Assembly: GCF_026151205.1 (NCBI RefSeq)
Contig: NC_087084.1
Location: forward strand, 536,812 to 600,811
Direction of reading: 5' to 3'
From: Bolinopsis microptera
Lineage: Eukaryota; Ctenophora; Tentaculata; Lobata; Bolinopsidae
Length of the DNA stretch: 64,000 nt
Part shown: positions 5,201 through 49,993 of the stretch, one piece after another
How positions within the stretch are numbered: the first letter of the stretch is position 1
Layout of the letters: every line of letters starts with the position of its first letter
The notes under the pieces: model-generated
Seen by the model: only the letters and a program-made list of their open reading frames with translations
Told to the model about the DNA's origin: nothing
Database searches by the model: none
Position numbers and translations under genes: made by a program

Positions 5201-6710
5201 ACTAACCTCTTAAACCTGGACACTATTAGCTAACCTCTTAAACTCGGACACTATTAGCTAACCTCTTAAACCCGGACATTATTAGCTTACCTCTTAAACC
5301 CGGACATTATTAGCTAACCTCTTAAACCCGGACATTATTAGCTAACCTCTTAAACCCGGACACTATTAGCTAACCTCTTAAACCCGGACATTATTAGCTA
5401 ACCTCTTAAACCCGGACATTATTAACTAACCTCTTAAACCCGGGCACTATTAGCTAACCTCTTAAGCCCGGACACTATTAGCTAACCTCTTAAACCCGGA
5501 CACTATTAGCTAACCTCTTAAACCCGGACACTATTAGCTAACCTCTTAAACCCGGACACTATTAGCTAACCTCTTAAACCCGGACATTATTAACTAACCT
5601 CTTAAACCCGGACACTATTAGCTAACCTCTTAAACCCGGACACTATTAGCTAACCTCTTAAACCCGGACACTATTAGCTAACCTCTTAAACCCGGACACT
5701 ATTAGCTAACCTCTTAAACCCGGACATTATTGACTAACTTCTTAAACCCGGACACTATTAACTAACCTCTTAAACCCGGACACTATTAGCTAACCTCTTA
5801 AACCTGGACATTATTAGCTAACCTCTTAAACCCGGACACTATTAGCTAACCTCTTAAACCCGGACACTATTAGCTAACCTCTTAAACCCGGACACTATTA
5901 GCTAACCTCTTAAACCCGGACATTATTAGCTAACCTCTTAAACCCGGACACTATTAGCTAACCTCTTAAACCCGGACACTATTAGCTAACCTCTTAAACC
6001 CGGACATTATTAACTAACCTCTTAAACCTGGACACTATTAGCTAACCTCTTAAACCTGGACATTATTAGCTAACCTCTTAAACCCGGACACTATTAGCTA
6101 ACCTCTTAAGCCCGGACACTATTAGCTAACCTCTTAAACCCGGACATTATTAGCTAACCTCTTAAACCCAGACATTATTAGCTAACCTCTTAAACCCGGA
6201 CACTATTAGCTAACCTCTTAAACCCGGACACTATTAGCTAACCTCTTAAACCCGGACACTATTAGCTAACCTCTTAAACCCGGACATTATTGACTAACCT
6301 CTTAAACCCGGACACTATTAACTAACCTCTTAAACCCGGACACTATTAGCTAACCTCTTAAACCTGGACATTATTAGCTAACCTCTTAAACCCGGACACT
6401 ATTAGCTAACCTCTTAAGCCCGGACACTATTAGCTAACCTCTTAAACCCGGACATTATTAGCTAACCTCTTAAACCCGGACACTATTATCTAACCTCTGA
6501 AACCCGGACATTATTAACTAACCTCTTAAACCCGGACATTATTAACTAACCTCTTAAACCCGGACACTATTAGCTAACTTCTTAAACCCGGACATTATTA
6601 GCTAACCTCTTAAACCCGGACATTATTAGCTAACCTCTTAAACCCGGACATTATTAACTAACCTCTTAAACCCGGACATTATTAACTAACCTCTTAAACC
6701 CGGACACTAC
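2235..6710. repeat. 28-bp minisatellite, about 160 copies, starting at a gene 2 splice donor
   Basis: Unit length is 28 bp, measured between successive cctcttaaacccgg starts. On the minus strand each unit reads GTCCGGGTTTAAGAG|GTTAGC followed by taataat. The 3' end of the coding exon at 6691-6811 is exactly this exon|donor sequence, so the array is made of copies of a 5' splice site and its flanks. Units vary at a few positions (cattatt/cactatt, agc/aac). Rare variants such as tctaacctctgaaa at 4781 and 6489, and ctaacttcttaaacctgg at 3242 and 4950, recur exactly 1708 bp apart (61 units), showing a tandem higher-order duplication inside the array. Confidence 0.97.
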
Positions 6711-6811
6711 AGATGGGATATCAACCCTCGTCTTAACTTTGGAAGTTTCCTCATTCTTCTGTTTTATTGCTTTTAGTCCATCTAGTGTTTCTTTGTTGCC
6801 GTGTACTATAC
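6691..6811 (-). CDS. Unrecognised gene 2, coding exon 2, with array-embedded donor
   Basis: Exon of 121 bases (2 + 39 codons + 2). The acceptor is gtgtatataccag and the donor is TTTAAGAG|gttagt. The peptide starts IVHGNKETLDGLKAIKQKNE, a likely amphipathic helix, and ends VDIPSVVSGFKR. Entry phase fits exon 1 (G + GT) and exit phase fits the exon at 436-533. The last 15 exon bases and the donor are also the repeat unit of the 4.5 kb array that follows, so about 160 near-identical 5' splice sites lie downstream in the same intron. Correct splicing needs the first of them or skipping over the rest. Confidence 0.72.
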
Positions 6812-6834
6812 CTGGTATATACACAAGATGGTTA

Positions 6835-6965
6835 ACAGTGACACTACCATATAAGGTAATGCTACCATGGTAACACTATCATAATAATAAGGTAATGCTA
6901 CCATGGTAACACTACCATATAAGGTAATGCTACCCTGGTAACACTACCATATAAGGTAATGTGCA
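6835..6965. repeat. X-box-bearing dispersed repeat, three to four copies
   Basis: Tandem 30-36 bp copies of the gctaccatggtaacactacc / atataaggtaat family, lying in gene 2 intron 1 between the acceptor of exon 2 and the 20-bp array at 6971. The palindrome CCATGG sits at the centre of each copy. Confidence 0.8.
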
Positions 6966-6970
6966 GATAA

Positions 6971-7070
6971 CTTACAGCCAGTAACTGACCCTTACAGCCA
7001 GTAACTGACCCTTACAGCCAGTAACTGACCCTTACAGCCAGTAACTGACCCTTACAGCCAGTAACTGACC
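6971..7070. repeat. 20-bp minisatellite, five exact copies
   Basis: Five identical tandem copies of cttacagccagtaactgacc. They lie in gene 2 intron 1 and are followed by a run of 20 C at 7095-7114 that starts 16 bases inside the intron from the donor at 7129. Confidence 0.97.
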
Positions 7071-7129
7071 CTTTGATAGCGGTTTAAGTAAACTCCCCCC
7101 CCCCCCCCCCCCCCTTAAAGTAAACTCAC

Positions 7130-7193
7130 CTCGTATATCATCTAGTATCTTGCTGATATCACCTTTAGAATCAGATCTCTTAACTTCACCCAT
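7130..7193 (-). CDS. Unrecognised gene 2, first coding exon with start codon
   Basis: ATG at 7193-7191 in a good context (A at -3, G at +4: ctacaATGGG), then 21 codons and one base before the donor ATACGAG|gtgagt. The peptide is MGEVKRSDSKGDISKILDDI plus Arg. The exit base G joins GT of the next exon to give Gly. This start was chosen because phase is kept through all four exons. The translated N-terminus looks helical and charged, with no signal peptide or membrane segment. The 250 bases upstream on the coding strand hold several CCATGG-centred repeat copies, so the promoter probably includes this repeat. I do not recognise the protein. Confidence 0.7.
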
Positions 7194-7261
7194 TGTAGAA
7201 CATTACCATGTTAACACACACTCTCACTTCATCCTACCTAACTGTAGTTACAAGTTAGATG

Positions 7262-7400
7262 TGGCAATATCACCATGGTAACACCACCATATTAGGTAAT
7301 ATCACCATGGTAACACTACCATATAAGGCAATATTACCATGTTAAAACTACCATACAAGGCAATATTACCATGGTAACAGTACCATAAAAACAGTTCCAT
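7262..7400. repeat. X-box-like repeats in the presumed gene 2 promoter
   Basis: Four copies of an approximately 35-bp unit, atcaccatggtaac / attaccatggtaac followed by accatataaggcaatatt, 70-200 bases upstream of the gene 2 start codon. Three keep the CCATGGTAAC half of the RFX X-box, but the first base of the left half is A instead of G, so binding is uncertain. Confidence 0.6.
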
Positions 7401-7555
7401 AAAAACCATATTACCACGGTAATACTTTCCGTTATCGTCGTTAATTTCGTGAAAATAAAAGAGCTCCGCAATTAATTTTTAAATTTGTAAAACAAACTTA
7501 TATGTTGAAGCTTTTACACTCGTGTGTTAGACGTGTGTTGCACGAGTGTGGGTTC

Positions 7556-8430
7556 TTTTGCGATAGTCAAAACGCGACAACTAGCGCTGGATAGCGACAA
7601 CTAGCGCTGGCCAGCGCTGGCCAGCGCTAAGCGATAGCCAGCGCAAAATTTTTGCGATATTACTCGTCAGCTAGCGCTAGCTAGCGCTAGCCAGCGCTGG
7701 CCAGCGCAATGTATCAAAATCATATACTTGCGATATTACTATATACTTGCGATATTACTATTAGAATAGAAATTCGGTGGAATGACAGGCTGAGCGCCGC
7801 CCAGTAAGTTGAGCTCCGCCCAGCTAGTAGTAGTAAGCCAACGCTAACGATTGTAAATGTAAATGTAGGTTTATAACCGTACCTTTAGTTTTACAAATAT
7901 TTGCTCACCGAGTTGGACTTGGATTTGAAAAAATATTTCCAATTTTACGAGTATCACCCGTTAAGCTGACAAGAAATATTGCAAATATATTGCGCTGGTC
8001 AGTCAGCGTCAGCTGACGATTAATAATTTCGCAAATATTTGATTTTGAGTTATTGGCATTGCGCTGGCTAGCGCTAGCTGACGAATAATATTATTATTGC
8101 AACTATATTGCGCTGGCCAGTGCTGGCTGACGAGCTTAATATCGCAAATATTTGATTTTCATATTTTGCGCTGGCCAGCGCTGGCTGACGAGTAATATCG
8201 CAAGTATATGATGTTGATACATTGTGCTGGCTGGTTAGCGCTGGTTAGCGCTGGTTAGCGCTGGCTAGCGCTGGCTAGCGCTGGCCAGCGCTAGCTGACG
8301 AGTAATATCGCAAACATTTTGCGCTGGCAATCGATGGCCAGCGCTGGCTATCGCTTAGCGCTGGCCAGCGCTAGTTGTCGCTATCCAGCGCTAGTTGTCG
8401 CTATCCAGCGCTAGTTATCGAACTGTTTTC
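7556..8430. mobile_element. Foldback-type element built of gcgctggcc subrepeats
   Basis: The left arm (about 7556-7720: gcgatag, gcgacaactagcgctgg twice, then gatattactcgtcagc) is mirrored by the right arm (about 8150-8430: gctgacgagtaatatcgc, then ccagcgctagttgtcgc repeated). The interior alternates copies of the palindrome tagcgctggccagcgcta with AT-rich spacers that also face both ways. This is the layout of a foldback or MITE-like element with internally repeated arms. No ORF is present. A segment at 7850-7975 (gtaggtttataacc ... tacgagtatcacccgttaa) is shared with 16080-16180 (reversed) and 16440-16530. Confidence 0.65.
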
Positions 8431-9383
8431 TGCGATGGCCAGTTGCGCTGCACAAACTGTTACACGACACTACTACACGACAAGCAAAGAAATTCACACA
8501 CAAAACTTAGAATAAACACATCAAATAACAACAAATGTATTGATAACCTAAAATAGTAACAATGGATATAACATAACATAACATATAACATAACATAATA
8601 ACATTAACAGTGGTACAAACAAAGCTTTTACACAGAGCGAGTAACCCACATCACATTGAACTAGTGACAGATAGTGTACAACTGTTTATATTTTATTTCA
8701 CTGATACACATCTTATAAACATATTGGATGGTGTTTATTAGGTTTATGTTATGTTTTGTTAGATAATAATATCATGTAGTTATATATAACAATACTACTG
8801 TTGCTCGCGTTATATAGTAACTAAATAAATAGTAAGCCTACTAGGATATTTAGTGTTACCATGGTAACACTACCTTATATAGTAATGTTACCGATACCTT
8901 ATATGGTAGTGTTACATAAATGTAGATTAACCAATCAGCTTACAGCAAATCAGTTTGACACTGTCAAAAATCAGTCTAAAAACTGAGAGCTTGAAAAACA
9001 ATGTTCTGTGAGAACTCTTTAAAAAAAATATAACGAAAGATAAACTACGCAGTTATATATTATGTACAAAGAAACACCACAACATAACAATTCTCTCTCG
9101 CGCAAGAACTACAAACTACTACTACTACAGAACTACAAACTACAGCAACAGAACTACAAACTACAGCAACACAGCTACTACTATTGCTACTACAAAGCTC
9201 TTTAACTAAGAGCTACATGGACCAGGAAATGATGTTATCATACAAGCTTGGAGCGTTTAGTATTATATAGCATTATTATATAGTATTATATAGTATTATA
9301 TAGTATTGTAATATAGTATAAAATAGTGTTATATGGTATTATATGGTATTATATAGCAATATATTATACATTTGTTATAGTAT
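8430..9383. other. AT-rich intergenic sequence with small tandem repeats
   Basis: Nothing coding is seen. It contains an acataacataac run (8565-8600), a perfect GTTACCATGGTAAC X-box palindrome at 8855-8868, an actacaaactac repeat (9105-9190) and a tagtattata repeat (9258-9360). Confidence 0.5.
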
Positions 9384-10230
<847 letters not shown>

Positions 10231-10460
10231 CGAAGAGTCAATTTAACAGTAAGTGGCAATAATCAAACAGCGAATATGAGGGTATTAGGTGCATGTTATT
10301 ACAACAAACACACCTAATACCTTTACAAAAGCGATGTTTTGCAAACAAAATCTAATGTTCGTAATGGGACTATTATATTATATACTAGTGTTCTATTTGT
10401 AATGATGTTTACAAGGGTTCAGTTTCTAGAGAATGTGTATTTTGTGATTTAGGGGTTCTC

Positions 10461-11620: not shown

Positions 11621-11624
11621 TAAA

Positions 11625-12376: not shown

Positions 12377-12379
12377 TTA

Positions 12380-13455: not shown

Positions 13456-13464
13456 GAGCACCTG

Positions 13465-14243
<779 letters not shown>

Positions 14244-18188: not shown

Positions 18189-18201
18189 CTCTAATATTTT
18201 G

Positions 18202-19848
18202 AGAGCAGGTTGTTGAGTAGCACGCTCTTAGGAAAGTCTAAAGGTAAGGTAGCTATCAGATCACTGCTGCTATCCGAGGGAGCCCCCTCACTTGGTAGAG
18301 AGCAGGTTGTTGAGCAGCACACTCTTAGGAAAGTCTAGAGGTAAGGTAGCTATAAGATCACTGCTGCTATCTGAGGGAGCCGCCTCACTTGGTAGAGAGC
18401 AGGTTGTTGAGTAGCACGCTCTTAGGAAAGTCTAGAGGTAAGGTAGCTATAAGATCACTGCTGCTATCTGAGGGAGCCCCCTCACTTGGTAGAGAGCAGG
18501 TTGTTGAGTAGCACACTCTTAGGAAAGTCTAGAGGTAAGGTAGCTATAAGATCACTGCTGCTATCTGAGGGAGCCGCCTCACTTGGTAGTGAGCAGGTTG
18601 TTGAGCAGCACACTCTTAGGAAAGTCTAGAGGTAAGGTAGCTATAAGATCACTGCTGCTATCTGAGGGAGCCGCCTCACTTGGTAGAGAGCAGGTTGTTG
18701 AGCAGCACACTCTTAGGAAAGTCTAGAGGTAAGGTAGCTATAAGATCACTGCTGCTATCTGAGGGAGCCGCCTCACTTGGTAGAGAGCAGGTTGTTGAGC
18801 AGCACACTCTTAGGAAAGTCTAGAGGTAAGGTAGCTATAAGATCACTGCTGCTATCTGAGGGAGCCGCCTCACTTGGTAGAGAGCAGGTTGTTGAGCAGC
18901 ACACTCTTAGGAAAGTCTAGAGGTAAGGTAGCTATAAGATCACTGCTGCTATCTGAGGGAGCCGCCTCACTTGGTAGAGAGCAGGTTGTTGAGCAGCACA
19001 CTCTTAGGAAAGTCTAGAGGTAAGGTAGCTATAAGATCACTGCTGCTATCTGAGGGAGCCGCCTCACTTGGTAGAGAGCAGGTTGTTGAGCAGCACACTC
19101 TTAGGAAAGTCTAGAGGTAAGGTAGCTATAAGATCACTGCTGCTATCTGAGGGAGCCGCCTCACTTGGTAGAGAGCAGGTTGTTGAGCAGCACACTCTTA
19201 GGAAAGTCTAGAGGTAAGGTAGCTATAAGATCACTGCTGCTATCTGAGGGAGCCGCCTCACTTGGTAGAGAGCAGGTTGTTGAGCAGCACACTCTTAGGA
19301 AAGTCTAGAGGTAAGGTAGCTATAAGATCACTGCTGCTATCCGAGGGAGCCCCCTCACTTGGTAGTGAGCAGGTTGTTGAGCAGCACACTCTTAGGAAAG
19401 TCTAGAGGTAAGGTAGCTATAAGATCACTGCTGCTATCTGAGGGAGCCGCCTCACTTGGTAGAGAGCAGGTTGTTGAGCAGCACACTCTTAGGAAAGTCT
19501 AGAGGTAAGGTAGCTATAAGATCACTGCTGCTATCTGAGGGAGCCGCCTCACTTGGTAGAGAGCAGGTTGTTGAGTAGCACGCTCTTAGGAAAGTCTAGA
19601 GGTAAGGTAGCTATAAGATCACTGCTGCTATCTGAGGGAGCCCCCTCACTTGGTAGAGAGCAGGTTGTTGAGCAGCACACTCTTAGGAAAGTCTAGAGGT
19701 AAGGTAGCTATAAGATCACTGCTGCTATCTGAGGGAGCCGCCTCACTTGGTAGAGAGCAGGTTGTTGAGCAGCACACTCTTAGGAAAGTCTAGAGGTAAT
19801 GTAGCTATAAGATCACTGCTGCTATCTGAGGGAGCCGCCTCACTTGGT
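18202..19848 (-). repeat. 97-bp array: amplified coding segment of the VPS13B terminal exon, about 17 copies
   Basis: The period is 97 bp (for example aggttgttga at 18304 and 18401). Each unit on the minus strand encodes part of the VPS13B C-terminal tail (LPSEAAPSDSSSDLIATLPL, then DFPKSVLLNNLLS). Since 97 is not a multiple of three, the frame closes at the first junction with STK-stop. The far copy at 18202 ends with SKY-stop, which looks like the original end of the gene. Units differ by a handful of shared substitutions (agtagcacgct/agcagcacact, gccgcc/gccccc). Confidence 0.95.
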
Positions 19849-19909
19849 AGGTTGTACATCTTGTTTATCTTAGCCAGCAGTGACTTGTCCAGCTTACTCG
19901 CCTCATCCT
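19743..19909 (-). CDS. VPS13B: VPS13B terminal coding exon (C-terminal tail and stop)
   Basis: The acceptor is aaacgtcccacag. The exon has 167 bases (2 + 54 codons + TGA) and completes residues 850-904 of the 904-codon rebuilt fragment. The peptide begins EDEASKLDKSLLAKINKMYN and continues into an acidic, Ser-rich tail ending LLNNLLSTK. The final TK and the stop are formed at the first junction of the 97-bp repeat array, so the stop is a product of the duplication. The ancestral end, SKY-stop, sits 1.5 kb downstream at the far end of the array. Splicing within the array cannot be excluded. Confidence 0.78.
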
Positions 19910-20506: not shown

Positions 20507-20539
20507 CTGAAAAATGGGGCGGTTATAAACTAGCCAATC

Positions 20540-21004
20540 AGAGCGCTGTATTCACAGCACGTGACACAAACCAACCAATGAGAGCACAGTATTAACACCA
20601 CGTGACACAAACCAACCAATGAGAGCACAGTTTTCACACCACGTGATTCAAACCAGCCAATCAGAGCACAGTATACACACCACGTGACACAAACCAACCA
20701 ATGAGAGCACAGTTTTCACACCACGTGATTCAAACCAGCCAATCAGAGCACAGTATACACACCACGTGACACACACCAGCCAATCAGAACACAGTATTCA
20801 CACCACGTGATTCAAACCAGCCAATCAGAGCACAGTATTCACACCACGTGATTCAAACCAGCCAATCAGAGCACAGTATACACACCACGTGACACAAACC
20901 AGCCAATGAGAGCACAGTATACACACCACGTGACACAAACCAACCAATCAGAGCACAGTATTCACACCACGTGACACAAACCAACCAATCAGAGCACAGT
21001 ATAC
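20540..21004. repeat. 41-bp intronic array with paired E-box and CCAAT motifs, 11 copies
   Basis: CACGTG occurs every 41 bp from 20558 to 20968 (20558, 20599, 20640, 20681, 20722 and on). Each is followed by gacacaaaccaaccaatcag with an inverted-CCAAT/CCAAT context. The last unit ends at the donor of the 21005-21222 exon (CTCAG|gtatactgtgctctgattgg on the minus strand). CACGTG is the bHLH E-box core; CCAAT is the NF-Y box. Sister copies lie at 60-117, 22205-22350, about 38300-38330 and 52265-52505. Confidence 0.93.
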
Positions 21005-21222
21005 CTGAGTCTGGTATCTGATTTGAGAAGCTGGTTGAGGTCTGGTACTAGAGGGCTGGGAGCTAAAGTCCAGCCAGCTCCAGTTAACAATCCCTCTCCT
21101 GTATTAGCTACCAACTCTGCTGCTCCTCCCAGTGGTTTGGTTACCATGCCAACCAGGCCCTTAGATACACCCGTTACTAATCCCCTGGTAGCTCCCACTA
21201 TCCCATCTGATGCTCCGATATC
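21005..21222 (-). CDS. VPS13B: VPS13B exon: core of VPS13_C domain
   Basis: 218 bases (72 codons + 2); acceptor aatgttcag, donor CTCAG|gtatac. The peptide contains GVSKGLVGMVTKPLGGAAEL followed by VANTGEGLLTGAGW. This is the family-diagnostic Gly-rich helix motif of VPS13_C, and human VPS13B has the near-identical order TKPIGGAAELVSQTG, then HGAG (from memory). The domain helps membrane and Golgi targeting in known VPS13 proteins. It ends in a Pro/Leu linker and LRYT-like frame continuing into the next exon. One of the two exons that fix the identification. Confidence 0.9.
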
Positions 21223-21472: not shown

Positions 21473-21590
21473 CTGTGTCTGGGAACAGAGGTGTTATTAG
21501 GTAACTTATAATGTTATAATAACAGGGGTGTTATTGGTTAACTTATAATGTTATAATGATAATCAGGATTACAAGATCATAGGGTAATGA

Positions 21591-21745
21591 TGACGTCATA
21601 TCAGATAATGATGACGTCATATAGGGTAACGATGACGTCATATTAAATAATAATGACGTCATTTAGGGTAATAATGACGTCATTTAGGGTTATGATTACG
21701 TCATATAGGATAACGATGACGTTATATTAGATAATGATGACGTCA
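21591..21745. repeat. 21-bp intronic array with eight CRE-like motifs
   Basis: TGACGTCA or a one-base variant occurs at 21591, 21612, 21633, 21654, 21675, 21696 (ttacgtca), 21717 (tgacgtta) and 21738, exactly 21 bp apart. Spacers are AT-rich (tatagggtaacga, tattagataatga). The array ends nine bases from the donor of the 21754-21826 exon. TGACGTCA is the canonical CREB/ATF site. Confidence 0.92.
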
Positions 21746-22204: not shown

Positions 22205-22350
22205 AAAGTAACCAATCAGAGCACTGTATTCACACCATGTGACACGAACCAAGCAATCAGAGCACTGTAATCACACCACGTGACACAAACTAACCAATCA
22301 GAACACAGTAATCACATCACGTGACATAAACTGACCAATTCACACCACGT
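22205..22350. repeat. E-box/CCAAT 41-bp repeat, three to four copies
   Basis: Units with aaccaatcagagcactgta and cacgtgaca, the same family as 20540-21004, starting about 14 bases upstream of the acceptor of the exon at 22125-22196. Confidence 0.85.
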
Positions 22351-22444: not shown

Positions 22445-22586
22445 CCTCGTAAGGCAGGAACACCAGATCTCTAACTCCAGTTAGTGTGCTCCTAATCATG
22501 AGACCAGGCGAGCCGAGCAGGTCCAGGGAGGCTAGTGCCCACCCTGCCTGGAGGATGGTATCACTGGCGTACTTAGCTAGAATAAC
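22445..22586 (-). CDS. VPS13B: VPS13B exon: start of VPS13_C domain; 5' half shared with the 98-bp array
   Basis: 142 bases (47 codons + 1); acceptor cacatccctcccccag, donor TACGAGG|gtcagt. The peptide runs VILAKYASDTILQAGWALAS, LDLLGSPGLMIRSTLTGVRD, LVFLPYE. The GW ... GSLxLLGSP ... LPYEG pattern marks the entry to VPS13_C. The first 73 exon bases and the acceptor are repeated about 30 times upstream. This copy, nearest the donor, is the only one followed by the complete exon. Confidence 0.9.
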
Positions 22587-25443
22587 CTGGGGGAGGGATG
22601 TGTTTACTATACGAGCAGGTCCAGGGAGGCTAGTGCCCACCCTGCCTGGAGGATGGTATCACTGGCGTACTTAGCTAGAATAACCTGGGAGAGGGATGTG
22701 TTTACTATACGAGCAGGTCCAGGGAGGCTAGTGCCCACCCTGCCTGGAGGATGGTATCACTGGCGTACTTAGCTAGAATAACCTGGGGGAGGGATGTGTT
22801 TACTATACGAGCAGGTCCAGGGAGGCTAGTGCCCACCCTGCCTGGAGGATGGTATCACTGGCGTACTTAGCTAGAATAACCTGGGGGAGGGATGTGTTTA
22901 CTATACGAGCAGGTCCAGGGAGGCTAGTGCCCACCCTGCCTGGAGGATGGTATCACTGGCGTACTTAGCTAGAATAACCTGGGGGAGGGATGTGTTTACT
23001 ATACGAGCAGGTCCAGGGAGGCTAGTGCCCACCCTGCCTGGAGGATGGTATCACTGGCGTACTTAGCTAGAATAACCTGGGGGAGGGATGTGTTTACTAT
23101 ACGAGCAGGTCCAGGGAGGCTAGTGCCCACCCTGCCTGGAGGATGGTATCACTGGCGTACTTAGCTAGAATAACCTGGGGGAGGGATGTGTTTACTATAC
23201 GAGCAGGTCCAGGGAGGCTAGTGCCCACCCTGCCTGGAGGATGGTATCACTGGCGTACTTAGCTAGAATAACCTGGGGGAGGGATGTGTTTACTATACGA
23301 GCAGGTCCAGGGAGGCTAGTGCCCACCCTGCCTGGAGGATGGTATCACTGGCGTACTTAGCTAGAATAACCTGGGGGAGGGATGTGTTTACTATACGAGC
23401 AGGTCCAGGGAGGCTAGTGCCCACCCTGCCTGGAGGATGGTATCACTGGCGTACTTAGCTAGAATAACCTGGGGGAGGGATGTGTTTACTATACGAGCAG
23501 GTCCAGGGAGGCTAGTGCCCACCCTGCCTGGAGGATGGTATCACTGGCGTACTTAGCTAGAATAACCTGGGGGAGGGATGTGTTTACTATACGAGCAGGT
23601 CCAGGGAGGCTAGTGCCCACCCTGCCTGGAGGATGGTATCACTGGCGTACTTAGCTAGAATAACCTGGGGGAGGGATGTGTTTACTATACGAGCAGGTCC
23701 AGGGAGGCTAGTGCCCACCCTGCCTGGAGGATGGTATCACTGGCGTACTTAGCTAGAATAACCTGGGGGAGGGATGTGTTTACTATACGAGCAGGTCCAG
23801 GGAGGCTAGTGCCCACCCTGCCTGGAGGATGGTATCACTGGCGTACTTAGCTAGAATAACCTGGGGGAGGGATGTGTTTACTATACGAGCAGGTCCAGGG
23901 AGGCTAGTGCCCACCCTGCCTGGAGGATGGTATCACTGGCGTACTTAGCTAGAATAACCTGGGGGAGGGATGTGTTTACTATACGAGCAGGTCCAGGGAG
24001 GCTAGTGCCCACCCTGCCTGGAGGATGGTATCACTGGCGTACTTAGCTAGAATAACCTGGGGGAGGGATGTGTTTACTATACGAGCAGGTCCAGGGAGGC
24101 TAGTGCCCACCCTGCCTGGAGGATGGTATCACTGGCGTACTTAGCTAGAATAACCTGGGGGAGGGATGTGTTTACTATACGAGCAGGTCCAGGGAGGCTA
24201 GTGCCCACCCTGCCTGGAGGATGGTATCACTGGCGTACTTAGCTAGAATAACCTGGGGGAGGGATGTGTTTACTATACGAGCAGGTCCAGGGAGGCTAGT
24301 GCCCACCCTGCCTGGAGGATGGTATCACTGGCGTACTTAGCTAGAATAACCTGGGGGAGGGATGTGTTTACTATACGAGCAGGTCCAGGGAGGCTAGTGC
24401 CCACCCTGCCTGGAGGATGGTATCACTGGCGTACTTAGCTAGAATAACCTGGGGGAGGGATGTGTTTACTATACGAGCAGGTCCAGGGAGGCTAGTGCCC
24501 ACCCTGCCTGGAGGATGGTATCACTGGCGTACTTAGCTAGAATAACCTGGGGGAGGGATGTGTTTACTATACGAGCAGGTCCAGGGAGGCTAGTGCCCAC
24601 CCTGCCTGGAGGATGGTATCACTGGCGTACTTAGCTAGAATAACCTGGGGGAGGGATGTGTTTACTATACGAGCAGGTCCAGGGAGGCTAGTGCCCACCC
24701 TGCCTGGAGGATGGTATCACTGGCGTACTTAGCTAGAATAACCTGGGGGAGGGATGTGTTTACTATACGAGCAGGTCCAGGGAGGCTAGTGCCCACCCTG
24801 CCTGGAGGATGGTATCACTGGCGTACTTAGCTAGAATAACCTGGGGGAGGGATGTGTTTACTATACGAGCAGGTCCAGGGAGGCTAGTGCCCACCCTGCC
24901 TGGAGGATGGTATCACTGGCGTACTTAGCTAGAATAACCTGGGGGAGGGATGTGTTTACTATACGAGCAGGTCCAGGGAGGCTAGTGCCCACCCTGCCTG
25001 GAGGATGGTATCACTGGCGTACTTAGCTAGAATAACCTGGGGGAGGGATGTGTTTACTATACGAGCAGGTCCAGGGAGGCTAGTGCCCACCCTGCCTGGA
25101 GGATGGTATCACTGGCGTACTTAGCTAGAATAACCTGGGGGAGGGATGTGTTTACTATACGAGCAGGTCCAGGGAGGCTAGTGCCCACCCTGCCTGGAGG
25201 ATGGTATCACTGGCGTACTTAGCTAGAATAACCTGGGGGAGGGATTAGTTTACTATACGAGCAGGTCCAGGGAGGCTAGTGCCCACCCTGCCTGGAGGAT
25301 GGTATCACTGGCGTACTTAGCTAGAATAACCTGGGGGAGGGATGTGTTTACTATACGAGCAGGTCCAGGGAGGCTAGTGCCCACCCTACCTGGAGGATGG
25401 TATCACTGGCGTACTTAGCTAGAATAACCTGGGGGAGGGATGT
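22514..25443 (-). repeat. 98-bp array: 3' splice site plus 73 exon bases of VPS13B, about 30 copies
   Basis: The period is 98 bp (gagcag at 22515, 22613, 22711 and on). On the minus strand each unit holds 25 intronic bases ending ACATCCCTCCCCCAG, then GTTATTCTAGCTAAGTACGC and the rest of 73 coding bases. All but the last copy run from CTGGACCTGCTC into GTATAGTAA, so using an upstream acceptor without another splice adds VILAKYASDTIL... LDLLV and then a stop. Copies are almost identical; the few variants include ggattag at about 25245. Confidence 0.97.
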
Positions 25444-25588
25444 GTTTAATAAGAATACTCACAGTGAGAGTAAGTGCAGCAACTAGAACGCACTATTACT
25501 ATTATTATTATTAGAACGCACTACTACTACTACTACTACTAAGAGTTGGGAAGTATATTAATGAACATATGAAATGGTGTTTAATGGT

Positions 25589-25840: not shown

Positions 25841-26336
25841 GGGGGGGGGGGGGGGGGGGGGTGTAACCCAAAAAAACCCAACCCCTACCCAAGAAAAGGT
25901 AATACTGGGATTGGGTTTTTTTGGGTTTTTTAAACAAAATTTAAACAAAATTCTAGCCATTTCATTAATTGTATTGAATGTGAATTATTTCCCACTGAGT
26001 CTTACCTACGTGTTGTTCTCATGTCTTAACTTAATAGATAGTTTACATAGTATATGAGTGTGTTTATATTGATAGTATGTTATCACGATAGCAAACAGGA
26101 TGTCTCGATCATCGAGATATAATCCATATTAATGCACAAAGTGGAAATGTGGCAAATGTGTTCTCCTGTCATGGAAGGAGGCTATGACGAAGGTCAAGGG
26201 CAAGTCAAAGCACATGACTTAAATTACTTGACTTAAGGCGGCTTCAGAGTCCGAGTCTCAATGATGTGTCTCCAAAGCTTTCTGTCCGCCATAAGCTCCT
26301 TAATCTCCCCAGTGTTCTTGAGTACGGTGTCACTTA

Positions 26337-26895
26337 TTAGGTTATCGACGAAAGTGAGCGGTGGTCTGCCCCTCCCTCTGGTCCCATGGCTAGGTTCCCG
26401 AAGGAGAAGTTGGTGTACTGCCAGGTCATCACATCGCTGGATCTCTGGATGTGCCCAGCCGACCTCATTCTTCTGGCCTGTATCTTCGAACTATCTCTTG
26501 GGAGTGATTTAAAGACCTCTTTGTTGGTGCGATGTTCTCTCCAGTCCACGTTTAGGGCCATCCAAAGCATTTTACTGTAACATCCGTCTATTCTTTTCAA
26601 AGATTCTGTCATTGTCCACGTTTCCGTTCCATACAGGAAGATTGATTCAACTGTAGCCTTGAAACAGACGGATCTTTAAATCTCGGCGCAAATTGGACCT
26701 CCATATAGCCTTCATTTTGTGGTAGGCAGCCCATGCCTTGGCCTTGCGTACCCTAAAGTCGTGCTCTGTTGTACTTATCCAGGCTCCTGGGTAGAAAAAA
26801 TCCTCAACTTCCTCTAAGGCATGTCCGTCCTTAGAAGTTATTGTGTGTGGCTCCTCTTCTACTAAATTAACAGTAAGATGCTTGGTTTTAGACAA
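26337..26895 (-). pseudogene. Non-LTR retrotransposon reverse transcriptase, C-terminal fragment, frameshifted
   Basis: Two adjoining minus-strand frames. The first reads KHLTVNL ... DGHALEEVEDFFYPGAWI ... VRKAKAWAAYHKMKAIW, then RDLKIRLF. After a shift near 26650 the second reads MTESLKRIDGCYSKMLWMAL, then NVDWREHRTN and RRMRSAGHI. This order is typical of the region after the RT palm in animal LINEs (EEP-RT type). Stops and the frameshift make it inactive. Most of the RT catalytic core is missing between here and the endonuclease fragment. Confidence 0.8.
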
Positions 26896-27009
26896 AAGAG
26901 ATTTTCTGCCTCCTCATCAGATGAGGCTTCTGTAGGACTGTAGCATGTGATGACAGTGAGCCTGCGCTTTCCATTGAAAGACATGGTGAGGATCCTTGCG
27001 CTGTAAGAT

Positions 27010-27290
27010 TTTATAAGACTTAAATAGCCTCATATGCTGTCCTCGTCAAGATGATTCCTACTCTCCCATTAGAAGCGCCAGCTGCGTTTCTCCACACAGA
27101 TGAGGTCACTAGATGAATCCCTTTGTTCATCTTTTCTATCCTGGTAGGCTCAGAATGCACTACATGATGTTCTTGCAGGCCAAGGATGTGCAGTTTGATT
27201 CGAGAAAATAGTTCTGCAAGTTCTTAGTTCGATGCGTTTGTGCTGTTCTCTGGCTGTTCTTATGTTAAATGTGCTAACCTTAGCAGTCCT
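27010..27290 (-). pseudogene. Non-LTR retrotransposon endonuclease (EEP) fragment
   Basis: Minus-strand reading KVSTFNIRTAREQHKRIEL, then after a small frame change ELFSRIKLHILGLQEHHVVH and VTSSVWRNAAGASNGRVGII, ending at a stop. The GLQEH block carries the conserved Glu of exonuclease-endonuclease-phosphatase domains, and the N-terminal FNIRT fits the start of such domains. It lies in the same sense and order as the RT fragment but only about 110 bp away, so an internal deletion removed the RT core. Confidence 0.75.
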
Positions 27291-36887: not shown

Positions 36888-38217
36888 CCTAATATTTACC
36901 TGAGAGAAGTGCTCAGTAAGAGTGAAGAGTTTCTATTTACCTGAGAGAAGTGCTCAGTAAGAGTGAAGAGTTTCTATTTACCTGAGAGAAGTGCTCAGTA
37001 AGAGTGAAGAGTTTCTATTTACCTGAGAGAAGTGCTCAGTAAGAGTGAAAAGTTTCTATTTACCTGGGAGAAGTGCTCAGTAAGAGTGAAGAGTTTCTAT
37101 TTACCTGGGAGAAGTGCTCAGTAAGAGTGAAGAGTTTCTATTTACCTGGGAGAAGTGCTCAGTAAGAGTGAAGAGTTTCTATTTACCTGAGAGAAGTGCT
37201 CAGTAAGAGTGAAGAGTTTCTATTTACCTGAGAGAAGTGCTCAGTAAGAGTGAAGAGTTTCTAATATTTACCTGAGAGAAGTGCTCAGTAAGAGTGAAAA
37301 GTTTCTATTTACCTGGGAGAAGTGCTCAGTAAGAGTGAAGAGTTTCTATTTACCTGGGAGAAGTGCTCAGTAAGAGTGAAGAGTTTCTATTTACCTGGGA
37401 GAAGTGCTCAGTAAGAGTGAAGAGTTTCTATTTACCTGAGAGAAGTGCTCAGTAAGAGTGAAGAGTTTCTATTTACCTGAGAGAAGTGCTCAGTAAGAGT
37501 GAAGAGTTTCTATTTACCTGGGAGAAGTGCTCAGTAAGAGTGAAGAGTTTCTATTTACCTGAGAGAAGTGCTCAGTAAGAGTGAAGAGTTTCTATTTACC
37601 TGAGAGAAGTGCTCAGTAAGAGTGAAGAGTTTCTAATATTTACCTGAGAGAAGTGCTCAGTAAGAGTGAAAAGTTTCTATTTACCTGGGAGAAGTGCTCA
37701 GTAAGAGTGAAGAGTTTCTATTTACCTGGGAGAAATGCTCAGTAAGAGTGAAGAGTTTCTATTTACCTGGGAGAAGTGCTCAGTAAGAGTGAAGAGTTTC
37801 TATTTACCTGAGAGAAGTGCTCAGTAAGAGTGAAGAGTTTCTATTTACCTGAGAGAAGTGCTCAGTAAGAGTGAAGAGTTTCTATTTACCTGAGAGAAGT
37901 GCTCAGTAAGAGTGAAGAGTTTCTATTTACCTGGGAGAAGTGCTCAGTAAGAGTGAAGAGTTTATATTTACCTGAGAGAAGTGCTCAGTAAGAGTGAAGA
38001 GTTTCTAATATTTACCTGAGAGAAGTGCTCAGTAAGAGTGAAGAGTTTCTATTTACCTGAGAGAAGTGCTCAGTAAGAGTGAAGAGTTTCTATTTACCTG
38101 AGAGAAGTGCTCAGTAAGAGTGAAGAGTTTCTATTTACCTGGGAGAAGTGCTCAGTAAGAGTGAAGAGTTTCTATTTACCTGAGAGAAGTGCTCAGTAAG
38201 AGTGAAGAGTTTCTTTA
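36888..38217 (-). repeat. 41-bp array: 5' splice site and 30 exon bases of VPS13B, about 32 copies
   Basis: The period is 41 bp. The minus-strand unit is CTCTTCACTCTTACTGAGC, ACTTCTCTCAG|GTAAATAG and aaa. The first copy forms the end and donor of the coding exon at 38180-38292. Each copy keeps a strong donor CAG|GTAAAT, a preceding pyrimidine-rich tract and a branchpoint-like CTTACTGAG. Every ninth unit has four extra bases (ctaatatttacc near 36889, 37262, 37635 and 38008), giving a 373-bp higher-order repeat. Confidence 0.97.
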
Positions 38218-38292
38218 CGCGGAACTGTTTGAACTTTAGAGGGATCTGATCCGCAGCCAGGAACAGCTTCACACTAGCGTGTACTCCTAGTT
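38180..38292 (-). CDS. VPS13B: VPS13B exon before VPS13_C; 3' end captured by the 41-bp array
   Basis: 113 bases (2 + 37 codons); acceptor ggttaatgtttcag, donor TTCTCTCAG|gtaaat. The peptide LGVHASVKLFLAADQIPLKF, KQFRVKKLFTLTEHFSQ runs without a break into VILAKYASDT of the next coding exon 15.6 kb downstream. A donor eight codons... earlier in the exon (CCGC|gtaaag) would drop part of this segment and also stay in phase, but it is weaker and gives a shorter match to the family pattern. Entry phase fits G of the exon ending at 40125. Confidence 0.85.
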
Positions 38293-40124: not shown

Positions 40125-41205
40125 CGATATCGATGTCTGAAATAGAGAACAGGTTCACTGCTAGCGGCTCGTAAAGTTCTGACATCAAGGAGAGCACGAG
40201 GGCAGGCATTAGCGAGGGAGAGGGAGCTGTACCTCTCTCTGTATTGCTGTGTTGTTCCAGTTCAGGGGTGGTCACGTGACTTGTGTTCAGGTCACGTGAT
40301 GCTACACGTGCAGTGTATTGTGAGAAAACATCTACCAGCTGATAGAGGAACAGGTCCTCTAAGTGCACGTGTATTTTACCCATGTGGAAGAGGAACTGGT
40401 GGACTGAGTTTTTAGCGTGGGTGTTATTGAAGGTGACAGTAGTTTTAAGGAAGGGTTCAGGACTGGCAATGGGGCCTACACGTACTGCTTTATCAGTAAA
40501 TAACACAACTAAGTAATCGTAAGTCTGATCACGCAGGGAGTTATCTATCTGGATATCATCTATGAGGAATGTAAGTGATTGGTGGGCTGTATCCTCACTA
40601 TCAGTTGTGGGAACTGTCGCGCTATCACTTGATTTGTCTACTGCACGTGCATGCGCGCTATCACGTGATTTGTCTGCTGCACGTGCATGCACGCAGTCAG
40701 GAGCGAGACTGCACGCCACGTTGCTGAGCCTGATCTGAGAAGCGAGAATGCTGTGCTCTGTGAAGAGGAACATATCCATCTGACTGACATTGAGGGAATA
40801 CGACCAGTCTGATGACGTCACGTTTGATGACGTCACGTCACGTGGGGAGCCCGCTCCGTCACGTGACCTCTTGGTAGTCCGTCTACTCTCCACCATGAAC
40901 TCTGACATGATACTCACTGTTACTAGGTTATCTTCGTTTCTCACGCAGATACCCACGTTATTGTCCTCGTCTATCTTTATTATTTCCAGCCTATCTGAAC
41001 CACAAGATGACAAGTCGTGTGACTCTTCTAAATCATCTGATTGGTCACGTGTAGTGTGTGTAGTGTCACGTGTAGAGTGTGTAGTGTGTGAAGTGTCACG
41101 TGACCGAGGGTCCAGCTCTATTTTATGTGAGTTTATCAGGGCCTCCTGGGAACGCCTGTAGAACGCGAATGAGAGTTGAGGGATGAAGTCGTTTTCGTTG
41201 ATGTC
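40125..41205 (-). CDS. VPS13B: VPS13B large exon: conserved region between SHR-BD and VPS13_C
   Basis: 1081 bases (360 codons + 1); acceptor atataacttcag, donor ATATCG|gtaagt. It covers residues 172-531 of the rebuilt fragment. Recognisable parts are RLEIIKIDEDNNVGICVRNE near the start, LTFLIDDIQIDNSLRDQTYD (the family's 'xQIDNQL' strand), and HVHLEDLFLYQLVDVF with VNLFSISDIDI near the end. Two Ser/Thr/Asp-rich insertions break the conserved parts. One is a THTT/HSTRDT repeat near 41040-41100; the other is a duplicated HARA-DKS-RDSA repeat near 40600-40690. Both are encoded by CACGTG-rich simple sequence. Expected role: part of the groove and adaptor-binding region of the lipid-transfer rod. 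Confidence 0.88.
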
Positions 41206-41232
41206 CTGAAGTTATATTATAGTATTATAGAG

Positions 41233-41665
41233 ACATTTTAAAGCAGGGGCGTAACACTGGGTTAAAGCAGTGGTGTAACAATGGGTTAAAGCAGTGGTGT
41301 AACACTGGGTTAGAGCAGTGGCGTAACACTGGGTTAAAGCAGTGGCGTAACACTGGGTTAAAGCAGTGGCGTAACACTGGGTTAAAGCAGTGGCGTAACA
41401 CTGGGTTAAAGCAGTGGCGTAACACTGGGTTAAAGCAGTGGCGTAACACTGGGTTAAAGCAGGGGCGTAACACTGGGTTAAAGCAGTGGCGTAACACTGG
41501 GTTAAAGCAGTGGCGTAACACTGGGTTAAAGCAGTGGCGTAACACTGGGTTAAAGCAGTGGCGTAACACTGTGTTAAAGCAGTGGCGTAACACTGTGTTA
41601 AAGTGCAGTGGCGTAACACTGGGTTAAAGCAGTGGCGTAACACTGGGTTAAAGCAGTGGCGTAAC
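41233..41665. repeat. 24-bp minisatellite, about 18 copies
   Basis: Units agcagtggcgtaacactggg + ttaa, period 24 bp, starting about 28 bases upstream of the acceptor of the exon at 41205. The open minus-strand frames arise because the period is a multiple of three. Confidence 0.97.
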
Positions 41666-42480: not shown

Positions 42481-42481
42481 G

Positions 42482-45400: not shown

Positions 45401-46386
45401 GAGAGCTACTTCCAGCAGCGCTCTGTGAGAGCTACTTCCAGCAGCGCTCTGTGAGAGCTACTTCCAGCAGCGCTCTGTGAGAGCTACTTCCAGCAGCGCT
45501 CTGTGAGAGCTACTTCCAGCAGCGCTCTGTGAGAGCTACTTCCAGCAGCGCTCTGTGAGAGCTACTTCCAGCAGCGCTCTGTGAGAGCTACTTCCAGCAG
45601 CGCTCTGTGAGAGCTACTTCCAGCAGCGCTCTGTGAGAGCTACTTCCAGCAGCGCTCTGTGAGAGCTACTTCCAGCAGCGCTCTGTGAGAGCTACTTCCA
45701 GCAGCGCTCTGTGAGAGCTACTTCCAGCAGCGCTCTGTGAGAGCTACTTCCAGCAGCGCTCTGTGAGAGCTACTTCCAGCAGTGCTCTGTGAGAGCTACT
45801 TCCAGCAGTGCTCTGTGAGAGCTACTTCCAGCAGCGCTCTGTGAGAGCTACTTCCAGCAGCGCTCTGTGAGAGCTACTTCCAGCAGCGCTCTGTGGGAGC
45901 TACTTCCAGCAGCGCTCTGTGAGAGCTACTTCCAGCAGCGCTCTGTGAGAGCTACTTCCAGCAGCGCTCTGTGAGAGCTACTTCCAGCAGCGCTCTGTGA
46001 GAGCTACTTCCAGCAGCGCTCTGTGAGAGCTACTTCCAGCAGCCCTCTGTGAGAGCTACTTCCAGCAGCGCTCTGTGAGAGCTACTTCCAGCAGCCCTCT
46101 GTGAGAGCTACTTCCAGCAGCGCTCTGTGAGAGCTACTTCCAGCAGTGCTCTGTGAGAGCTACTTCCAGCAGCACTCTGTGAGAGCTACTTCCAGCAGCC
46201 CTCTGTGAGAGCTACTTCCAGCAGCGCTCTGTGAGAGCTACTTCCAGCAGCGCTCTGTGAGAGCTACTTCCAGCAGCGCTCTGTGAGAGCTACTTCCAGC
46301 AGCGCTCTGTGAGAGCTACTTCCAGCAGCGCTCTGTGAGAGCTACTTCCAGCAGCGCTCTGTGAGAGCTACTTCCAGCAGCGCTCT
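42482..46386. repeat. 26-bp minisatellite, about 150 copies
   Basis: Unit gctctgtgagagctacttcc + agcagc, period 26 bp, with very few variants (cttcc/ctccc, gcgct/gtgct/gccct, gtgaga/gtggga) concentrated at both ends and the core nearly uniform. It fills the VPS13B intron between 46658 and 41205. On the minus strand each unit contains an acceptor-like tagctctcacag but no AG|GT. Confidence 0.98.
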
Positions 46387-46449
46387 TCACGCAGGCATGC
46401 GATATAAATTCTGCTTTCTAGTCACATTTGGCTCAAATTGTGATAATAA

Positions 46450-46654
46450 CAGTTAATGGTTAATTAGTTAATTAATTAGTTAATTAATAAGCTAATTAAT
46501 AAGCTAATTAATAAGATTATTAATAAGCTAATTAATAAACTAATTAATAAGCTAATTAATAAGCTAATTAATAAGCTAATTAATAAGATTATTAATAAGC
46601 TAATTAATAAACTAATTAATAAGCTAATTAATAAGCTAATTAATAAGCTAATTA
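46450..46654. repeat. 12-bp AT-rich array next to a VPS13B donor
   Basis: Units taattaataagc with variants taataagattat and taataaac. It ends a few bases from the donor of the exon at 46658-46825 (ATCCAG|gtataattag). Confidence 0.92.
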
Positions 46655-46657
46655 TAC

Positions 46658-46825
46658 CTGGATAAATAGTTTATCAGTTGTAGAGTAAGGGTCGAAGTAG
46701 CAGGATCTGAAAGGTTTGAGGAGAAGAGTCTTATGACCGTCCACTACGACACTGGTGGGAGTTAGGGTGGGGGGCAGTCTCTCACTCACTAGAAACTCAA
46801 ACTCACTGTTATTCGTCAAGTAGAT
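46658..46825 (-). CDS. VPS13B: VPS13B exon: SHR-BD-like region, part 2
   Basis: 168 bases (56 codons, phase 0 at both ends); acceptor ttatacacccctgcag, donor ATCCAG|gtataa. The peptide IYLTNNSEFEFLVSERLPPT ... GHKTLLLKPFRSCYFDPYST ... KLFIQ is strand-rich with short loops, as in the beta-propeller-like VAB/SHR-BD region. The (GTTT)n tract of the preceding intron supplies part of the pyrimidine stretch. Confidence 0.83.
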
Positions 46826-46845
46826 CTGCAGGGGTGTATAAGGTT

Positions 46846-47262
46846 AACAAACAAACAAACAAACAAACAAACAAACAAACAAACAAACAAACAAACAAAC
46901 AAACAAACAAACAAACGAACAAACAAACAAACAAACAAACGAACGAACGAACGAACGAACGAACGAACGAACGAACAAACAAACAAACAAACAAACAAAC
47001 AAACGAACGAACGAACGAACGAACGAACGAACGAACGAACGAACGAACGAACGAACAAACAAACAAACAAACAAACAAACAAACAAACAAACAAACAAAC
47101 AAACAAACAAACTAACAAACAAACAAACAAACAAACAAACAAACAAACAAACAAACAAACAAACAAACAAACAAACAAACAAACAAACAAACAAACAAAC
47201 AAACAAACAAACAAACAAACAAACAAACAAACAAACAAACAAACAAACAAAAAACAAACAAA
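46846..47262. repeat. (AAAC)n / (GAAC)n tetranucleotide array
   Basis: About 104 repeats, mostly AAAC, with two GAAC blocks at about 46940-46972 and 47004-47052. It lies 20 bases upstream of the acceptor at 46825. Open frames of Phe-Val-Cys-Leu or Asn-Lys-Gln-Thr type are artefacts of the repeat. Confidence 0.98.
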
Positions 47263-47263
47263 A

Positions 47264-47266
47264 AAC

Positions 47267-47300
<34 letters not shown>

Positions 47301-47301
47301 G

Positions 47302-47341
<40 letters not shown>
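47264..47341. repeat. (TAAC)n array beginning at a VPS13B donor
   Basis: About 19 TAAC repeats. On the minus strand they read gttagttagtta directly from the donor CCACAG|gttagt of the exon at 47342, so the splice donor is the first repeat unit. Confidence 0.96.
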
Positions 47342-47456
47342 CTGTGGACTGGTATTATAAGTGACTGTAACGTAGGTAGTAGCAGTGTGGTCCACACTAC
47401 ACACAACTACAGGTACTGGATTGCAAGGTTTATCTGACATCACGTTCACCCCTTTC
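47342..47456 (-). CDS. VPS13B: VPS13B exon: SHR-BD-like region, part 1
   Basis: 115 bases (1 + 38 codons); acceptor gagtttagcccctag, donor CCACAG|gttagt. The peptide KGVNVMSDKPCNPVPVVVCS then VDHTATTYVTVTYNTSPQ runs in phase into IYLTNNSE. Pairs of conserved-type strands separated by Pro/Asn loops fit the domain. Confidence 0.8.
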
Positions 47457-48404
47457 CTAGGGGCTAAACTCCTGTAACAGTTTCACTTTCACTATTAGTT
47501 ATAAACTCCTGTAACAGTTTCACTTTCACTTTTACAAATTAGACATGATTTCACAAAATAATATCAATCGAATTAACAAGCATTGCGCCCGTTGTTTCGT
47601 TTTGGTGGACGCTAGATTTTGATTCACTATAACTATAAGTATAAGCTCTAATCAGCTCGCTTCATAATAATAATATTGATAGATTATGCTTTAAATACGG
47701 GAAACACTTGAAATTCAATTCAATTGCCGTAGAACTTAACTTGTATCTGTAATTCAAGAAATTGTAAGCAAAAGTAAACTATACTCATGTTTTATACTTT
47801 CATACACATCAGTATTTAGTACACTACGCGTGCCACGTACAAATTGGGCTTATTACCTAATACTATACATTACATAGTATACATTAAAATACACTTGCGC
47901 CGCGCATTCATTGACCAAGACTAGCTATATACATCACATCTCCGCAAGCAATCGTCGCGCGGTGCGCGCGGCAAGTTGACATAGTAACGAACGGAATGAC
48001 AACATATTTGAACCCACCGACCTCGTTCTCCAAAATCCACGTTTTTCTGCAAAAACGACCATTCGTAACCTTTCACTATTGCTTTTTTACAAAAGCGTGC
48101 GAATGGAAAAATTGCCTGGTAACTACTACACATTAACACTTAACAGTTAACGCATATTATCTTGCTTTTGATTTGATTTGATGTTTTGATTTCTATATTA
48201 CACTAGTCACTATTCTACTCTTCAAACTTTACTATTTTACTAAGTTGGAATTATTATCTAACTGCAAGTTATATTTGAAATTTTGTTTTCATTTGGAGAT
48301 AATGCAATTGAGGCGGGATGGGTACTCTATGCAACATGAAACACCGTCTGGTCCCAGTATTCCGTATATTACGTGAAAAGAGCTGTAAACTGTTATTAAC
48401 AACT
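47457..48404. other. VPS13B intron, unique part
   Basis: A 31-base direct repeat (taaactcctgtaacagtttc, actttcact) lies at 47464-47530, next to the acceptor of the 47342 exon. Otherwise AT-rich with no exon found; the neighbouring exons are phase-compatible without one. Confidence 0.5.
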
Positions 48405-48848
48405 GTAACTAAATAAACTGTAACGAACTAAACTGCAACTAACTAAACTATAACCAGTTAAACTATAACTAACTTAAATATAACTAACTAAACTATAACT
48501 AACTAAACTATAAATAACTAAACTATAACTAACTTAAATATAACTAACTAAACTATAACTAACTTAAATATAACTAACTTAAATATAACCAACTTAAATA
48601 TAACTAACTAAACTATAACTAACTTAAATATAACTAACTTAACTATAACTAACTTAAATATAACTAACTAGACTATAACTAACTAAACTATAACTAACTT
48701 AAATATAACTAACTTAAATATAACTAACTTAAATATAACTAGATAAACTATAACTAACTAAACTATAACTAACTTAAATATAACTAACTTAAATATAACT
48801 AACTTAAATATAACTAACTTAAATATAACTAAATAAACTATAACTAAC
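48405..48848. repeat. 15-bp AT-rich array beginning at a VPS13B donor
   Basis: Units taactaactaaacta and taactaacttaaata alternate over about 29 copies. On the minus strand the array starts with the donor of the exon at 48849 (CTTAC|gttagttatagtt), so the donor lies inside the first unit. Confidence 0.95.
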
Positions 48849-48951
48849 GTAAGGTTTAAGGGAGAAGACCAGTTAGTAGATTGCTTGTAAGCCATTTCCA
48901 GCTCCATTTCACTACCCCACCAGTATAGGTCTGTACTGTACTCCTCTTCAA
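48849..48951 (-). CDS. VPS13B: VPS13B exon upstream of SHR-BD core
   Basis: 103 bases (2 + 33 codons + 2); acceptor ctaaccctcctcctcag, donor AACCTTAC|gttagt. The peptide EEEYSTDLYWWGSEMELEMA then YKQSTNWSSPLNL contains a Tyr-Trp-Trp element. Phases fit both neighbours. Confidence 0.78.
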
Positions 48952-49017
48952 CTGAGGAGGAGGGTTAGTTAATGATTGTAAAGGTATCTGTATGATGAGA
49001 TCAGGTGAGTGTTTCAT

Positions 49018-49853
49018 TGACTAATGTATATTGTATAATGTATATTGTATAATGTATAATGTATAATGTATATTGTATAATGTATAATGTATAATGTATA
49101 TTGTATAATGTATAATGTATATTGTATAATGTATAATGTATAATGTATATTGTATAATGTATATTGTATAATATATAATGTATAATGTATAATGCATAAT
49201 GTATAATATATAATGTATAATGTATATTGTATAATGTATAATGTATATTGTATAATGTATAATGTATAATGTATATTGTATAATGTATAATGTATATTGT
49301 ATAATGTATAATGTATAATGTATAATATATATTGTATAATGTATAATGTATAATGTATAATGTATATTGTATAATATATAATGTATAATATATATTGTAT
49401 AATGTATAATATATAATGTATAATGTATAATGTATAATGTATAATGTATAATGTATAATGTATAATGTATATTGTATAATGTATATTGTATAATATATAA
49501 TGTATAATGTATAATGTATAATGTATATTGTATAATATATAATGTATAATGTATAATGTATAATGTATAATGTATAATATATATTGTATAATGTATAATG
49601 TATAATGTATAATGTATAATGTATAATATATAATGTATAATGTGTAATGTATAATGTATATTGTATAATGTATATTGTATAATATATAATGTATAATGTA
49701 TAATGTATAATGCATAATGTATAATATATAATGTATATTGTATAATGTATAATGTATAATGTATAATGTATAATGTATAATGTATATTGTATATTGTATA
49801 ATATATAATGTATAATGTATAATGTATAATGTATAATGTATAATGTATAATGT
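49018..49853. repeat. TATAATG/TATTG AT-rich array
   Basis: About 830 bp of tataatgta and ttgtataatgta units of 5-10 bp in irregular order, with occasional atata variants. It starts 14 bases inside the intron from the donor at 49867. The 233-codon Tyr/Ile/His frame on the minus strand is an artefact of the repeat. Confidence 0.95.
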
Positions 49854-49866
49854 TTATCTGACTAAC

Positions 49867-49993
49867 CTAAAACCACTTTCTCTCCAAGCTTGATATAAAG
49901 TTGAGGTAATTTGACAGAGAGGACGAGAGAGGGCTTTATTGTTACCATGGTAACGTTACCCTTATACTCACAGTGTACAATCACGTGGCAACT
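49867..49993 (-). CDS. VPS13B: VPS13B exon, most upstream one identified
   Basis: 127 bases (42 codons + 1); acceptor cagataatttcag, donor GGTTTTAG|gttagt. The peptide SCHVIVHCEYKGNVTMVTIK then PSLVLSVKLPQLYIKLGEKV resembles the entry strands of the VPS13 adaptor-binding region ('IKP.LVL'). It contains the palindrome GTTACCATGGTAAC (49941-49954), here coding VTMVT, which is otherwise a hallmark of the local dispersed repeat. It begins in phase 0; the preceding exon was not found. Confidence 0.75.

Follow-up and report, generated by a model that had tools for sequence, protein, structure and literature searches.

Why do minisatellites in the genome of the ctenophore Bolinopsis microptera begin at splice sites, and how can exons carry such arrays at their edges? 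We addressed this question in a window of 64,000 nucleotides (positions 536,812 to 600,811 of contig NC_087084.1, assembly GCF_026151205.1), which corresponds to 0.54 to 0.60 Mb of a 16.35-Mb contig (C13) in a 264.65-Mb animal genome and holds parts of a VPS13-like gene and of a second, smaller gene. Arrays and their edges were defined using Tandem Repeats Finder (TRF), sequence reading, and reconstruction of exons and their phases; positions below are those of the window, and all splice sites named in it are on the minus strand. We consider it likely that the arrays are mirage-like minisatellites derived from duplicated exon edges, the growth of which is tolerated by exon-proximal splicing.

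Seven boundary arrays were examined, each of which enters its exon by 4 to 73 bp and repeats that exon's splice site. They straddle three donors (6691, 38180, and 48849) and four acceptors, namely, 22586, two in the upstream flank of the window, and one in a control alpha-actinin gene. A first-pass annotation of the window had described arrays that follow the three donors at once and contain them, an array before 22586 that contains this acceptor, and a further array at donor 47342, and we confirmed all of these (Table 1); at 47342 a GTTA microsatellite starts at the donor GT, although the TRF row begins 43 bp later. The seven further splice sites listed there indeed have an array edge 2 to 32 bp away. 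Besides, one upstream-flank acceptor is straddled by a 70-bp array that covers 26 bp of a phase-consistent exon, and the other by an 82-bp array of at least 8.6 kb that covers about 54 bp of its exon; the latter exon is less certain, because its phase misfits the next exon as first drawn. The AG/GT reported for the units was found as AGGT in 150/157 units of the 28-bp array, in 32/32 and 29/29 units of the 41-bp and 98-bp arrays, and in 158/158 units of a 44-bp array, which is mid-intron, at no recognised splice site; units of the 15-, 52-, 70-, and 82-bp arrays do not contain it. Units of the 98-bp array are 99.9% alike, and mean unit divergence in the 15-, 28-, and 41-bp arrays is 2 to 10 percent.

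Table 1. Exons and tandem arrays in the window (N, second gene; E, VPS13-like gene).
Feature	Positions	Strand	Remarks
Exon N2	6691..6811	-	Donor 6691; phase fits N1 (ends 7130) and N3 (533-436)
28-bp array, 159 copies	2258..6709	-	Covers last 19 bp of N2; unit is exon end, donor, and intron start
97-bp array, 17 copies	18201..19850	-	Apparently straddles VPS13-like stop codon; presumes E14 is the last exon
41-bp array	20527..21002	-	Occupies 96% of the E11-E12 intron
Exon E11	21005..21222	-	Donor 21005; 41-bp array from 2 bp downstream; VPS13 homology
21/42-bp array	21579..21745	-	Begins 8 bp past donor 21754 (E9)
41-bp array	22210..22339	-	Stops 13 bp short of acceptor 22196 (E8)
Exon E7	22445..22586	-	Acceptor 22586; VPS13A alignment
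98-bp array, 30 copies	22514..25448	-	Covers first 73 bp of E7; unit has polypyrimidine tract and acceptor
41-bp array, 32 copies	36889..38214	-	Covers last 35 bp of E6; donor GTAAAT in unit
Exon E6	38180..38292	-	Donor 38180; VPS13A alignment over E6-E7
Exon E5, 1081 bp	40125..41205	-	Array 41238-41665 stops 32 bp before acceptor 41205
12-bp array	46460..46654	-	Adjoins donor 46658 (3 bp)
Exon E4	46658..46825	-	Arrays 20 bp before acceptor 46825 and 3 bp after donor 46658
GTTA/GTTT/GTTC tetranucleotide array	46846..47341	-	Starts at donor GT; fills most of a 516-bp intron
Exon E3	47342..47471	-	Donor 47342; phase-consistent
15-bp array, 30 copies	48401..48852	-	Covers only 4 bp of E2; GTTAGT in 23/30 units
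Exon E2	48849..48951	-	Donor 48849; phase-consistent, without homology support
14/21-bp array	49022..49853	-	Begins 13 bp past putative donor 49867 (E1)

The minus strand of the window carries the 3' part of the VPS13-like gene, of which 14 exons (E1 to E14) join into a single open frame that encodes 913 residues. Alignments with VPS13A (E 4.2e-20) and VPS13C (7.5e-18) cover exons E6 to E11, and the VPS13A alignment spans the E6-E7 junction (38180/22586) with no gap and continues into E11. Homology backs E6 to E11 only, whereas E1 to E5 were called by frame and splice consensus and E12 to E14 likewise by frame, E1 being the weakest call. No Pfam family exceeded the cut-off over the 913 residues, and separate searches with E5 alone, with E1 to the start of E7, and with the upstream-flank exons returned no solved relative. 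Since the N terminus lies outside the window, we claim only a relation to VPS13. The second gene starts near 7193, and the phases of all four of its exons agree, although only the end of its first exon (N1) is fixed; it had no match in the Pfam scan.

Control genes were also analyzed. Those for TCP1 and Cpn60 (HSP60-like, by eye) came from a family search covering seven stretches around the places listed, and the alpha-actinin gene lies in one of four blocks taken at round coordinates; this block was annotated partly for its arrays, and the control is therefore not free of choice. In the alpha-actinin gene, a 52-bp array of 16 copies lies across the a6 acceptor, which was set by phase and falls inside the unit, and the alignment with actinin chain 1sjj_A (E 1.3e-88) crosses the a5-a6 junction and the other array junctions. 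A 16-bp array begins 4 bp after the a12 donor, a 13-bp array runs to 10 bp before the a10 acceptor, and four more arrays lie farther from splice sites. In a TCP1 gene, two arrays stop short of acceptors, by 3 and 19 bp, and another array is mid-intron, while the single intron used from the Cpn60 gene (L038) has an array ending 27 bp before the acceptor. Arrays over the threshold were absent from 17 of the 19 TCP1 introns (approximate, as gaps between matches) and from 7 of the 11 actinin introns. Two stretches, L036 and L037, yielded no exon set that could be used, and the counts do not include them. For nine arrays in three mid-chromosome blocks, exons were sought by eye in the neighbourhood, and no array could be assigned to any known gene. 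Positions 2466-2579 of L037 match a TCP1 exon on C1 in 35 of 38 residues and are probably a duplicated or decayed copy.

We propose that a boundary array would start with tandem duplication of a short segment over an exon edge, either exon end plus donor or acceptor plus exon start, and would later grow by ordinary slippage or unequal exchange. Every such duplication would keep one intact exon-proximal copy, the first in a donor array and the last in an acceptor array. If this copy is spliced, the mRNA is the same for any unit length, and the array would thus be free to grow in the intron. In the reconstructed genes, the reading frame continues with the exon-proximal copy and the protein is readable only if that copy is used; in the 28-bp and 41-bp arrays, the units farther from the exon have stop codons in every frame. 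Besides, the arrays that the 18 annotated window exons contain in full (six rows at four places, with N2 and E14 trimmed at the start of the boundary array) all have periods divisible by three.

The 97-bp array apparently shows the same pattern at an edge of another kind. Its first copy ends in LLNNLLSTK-stop and its last copy in LLNNLLSKY-stop, and the duplication probably turned the final two residues of the VPS13-like protein from KY into TK. Alternatively, AA/GTGAGG in the unit may be read as a donor with further coding sequence downstream. A stop-codon edge needs no splicing, and the common rule may accordingly be that, at any coding-sequence edge, a duplication passes if the copy beside the coding body stays intact. 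The first-pass annotation had held that repeat growth is tolerated or seeded where splicing can remove whole units. The tolerance half is supported, because the frame needs the exon-proximal copy, exonic periods are multiples of three, and the stop-codon edge seems to behave alike. That splicing can use the copy beside the exon is probably why boundary copies are tolerated, and we infer that growth is neutral and follows the mutational route given above.

The seeding half supposes that the splice-site sequence, or the transcription and splicing machinery at exon edges, favours the start of duplication there, and it was weighed by comparing array edges with chance. The counts exclude TRF rows with a period under 4 or a score under 80, overlapping rows, and the 82-bp flank array, whose intron is unbounded; for the GTTA run at 47342 only the TRF row was counted, and a 2.1-kb TCP1 gap that may hide an exon was not taken as an array-free intron. 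The thresholds of 13 and 20 bp were set after viewing the window, which had itself been picked by eye, and the controls are few. With the 13 introns of the VPS13-like gene at their present lengths and random placement inside them as the reference, four array edges lie within 5 bp of a donor versus 0.86 expected (P 0.003), which favours seeding, and two lie within 5 bp of an acceptor versus 0.87 expected (P 0.20). Likewise, 14 of 42 array ends in the window and flank are within 20 bp of a splice site versus 7.2 expected (P 0.0001), as are 5 of 22 in the controls versus 2.1 expected with their own collapsed introns (P 0.017). When 32 arrays from all sources were pooled and collapsed to one unit, 19 of 64 ends were within this distance versus 9.3 expected, or 12.8 (P 0.019) if introns were drawn unweighted from the 29 array-free introns, the median length of which is 212 bp. 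However, the pooled excess depends on how long the introns were: capping collapsed introns at 500 or 300 bp gave 11.6 (P 0.002) and 13.6 (P 0.028) expected, whereas at 200 and 150 bp the excess was gone (16.2, P 0.20, and 18.9, P 0.55). With introns drawn from the sample, the controls alone gave 2.3 to 3.9 expected (P 0.06 to 0.34), and six straddling arrays stand against 4.1 to 9.6 expected by random placement, a significant excess in no model. The window had, moreover, been chosen for its striking look, and a stop codon is apparently straddled too. Seeding is thus not established, because straddles are not above random and the edge excess hinges on ancestral intron length, and we regard it as unlikely. 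Quite improbable, in our judgment, is the wider proposal that exon edges are hot spots of array birth, that many introns came from amplified splice sites, and that the spare donors or acceptors, dozens to hundreds of them beside an exon, influence splicing.

Tolerance of copies at exon edges, which we prefer, has points weighing against it. If introns are drawn from the 29 array-free ones in proportion to their length, only 7.8 of the pooled ends are expected near splice sites (P < 1e-4), a result that also favours seeding; plain tolerance would predict the pooled excess only for ancestral introns of at most about 200 bp. Boundary arrays number eight if the stop-codon array is counted, and seven of them have a period not divisible by three, which is near the two-in-three chance. 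In addition, we infer from the sequence, by way of the continuing frame, which copy cells splice, namely, the exon-proximal one.

The first-pass annotation had also noted that tandem duplication of an AGGT-containing segment can create an intron. By this account, AGGT-bearing exon segments were duplicated and exon sequence became new introns, which would suit the AGGT in nearly all units of the 28-, 41-, and 98-bp arrays, and tandem duplication is documented as a source of introns (PMC4974935). Nevertheless, AGGT is the consensus of a site that already existed, and the units can be read as copies of it, so that this background is not needed; the arrays with AGGT-free units do not fit it, and the E6-E7 intron has separate arrays at either end of its 15.6 kb. 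We therefore consider intron creation very unlikely. It is extremely improbable that exons were misread, with their edges put at arrays by eye, or that assembly stutter produced the arrays. No homology backs E1 to E5, the flank exons, or the second gene, and the near identity of the 98-bp units might suggest an artefact, but the VPS13A and actinin alignments cross the junctions, 14 exons give one open frame, and the 15-, 28-, and 41-bp units differ among themselves. For the homology-backed junctions (E6, E7, and alpha-actinin a6), misreading was rejected and is largely refuted.

Tandem arrays longer than 60 bp make up 49% of the window. TRF rows cover 52% of the window and its flanks, compared with 3.5 to 16% of four 50-kb mid-chromosome blocks; the array-rich window is near a chromosome end, and the sample includes one such end only. 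Some repeats recur. A 41-bp repeat with CCAATCAGAG forms separate arrays at 20527-21002, 22210-22339, and 52270-52503, and two of these arrays occupy short VPS13-like introns. A 32-bp repeat family occupies 544-668, 6841-6961, and 7263-7387 and occurs at many further places in the genome; of the three arrays, two precede acceptors in the second gene, by 10 and 29 bp. A perfect AG dinucleotide run fills 697 bases of the assembly at 9427-10123. In the E6-E7 intron, fragments resembling the reverse transcriptase of a long interspersed nuclear element were seen by eye at 26236-27200, and a Pfam scan of two of the frames found no reverse-transcriptase family.

With about 30 to 160 nearly identical donors or acceptors next to a single exon, the large arrays are a natural experiment on the choice of the exon-proximal site. 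They point, too, to a way in which an intron of a few hundred bp could reach many kilobases with the protein untouched.

The boundary arrays are a further instance of the minisatellite "mirages" of lancelets, a kind already described for Adh3 and the globins BflGb6 and BflGb9 (PMC3087553) and also for TnC and PGBD5 (PMC3902484). In the open-licence literature, we found minisatellite mirages at splice boundaries for lancelets only and none for ctenophores; a ctenophore host implies that boundary-spanning minisatellites are no lancelet peculiarity. As in the cited lancelet accounts, the unit spans the exon-intron boundary, donors and acceptors are both affected, and many, although not all, units carry the splice dinucleotides, as the AGGT and GTTAGT counts of the 28-bp and 15-bp arrays illustrate. 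The present arrays differ in their genome and in their size: the 28-bp array has more copies, at 159, than those accounts give for mirages, and the 82-bp flank array extends over at least 8.6 kb. Adh3 data and globin reverse transcription-PCR suggest that mirages leave splicing undisturbed in lancelets (PMC3087553), and for B. microptera the observations bearing on splicing are continuity of frame and homology.

Other systems are alike in part. In the human IFI6 (6-16) minisatellite, reported by Turri, Cuin and Porter in 1995, repeat units at the end of an exon act as a source of splice donors (PMC4526556, PMC2572611), and two downstream units are used to give isoforms according to the cited descriptions, whereas the later 28-bp and 41-bp units here bring stops in all frames. 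For potato RdRp, intron gain through tandem duplication across an intron-exon boundary is described (PMC4974935); there one duplication made a new intron, whereas here existing introns seem to have grown. Finally, minisatellite expansion is reported to lengthen or make introns in human genes with internal tandem repeats (PMC2812944), and, although that account concerns recent human paralogs rather than splice-boundary arrays as such, intron lengthening is common to both.

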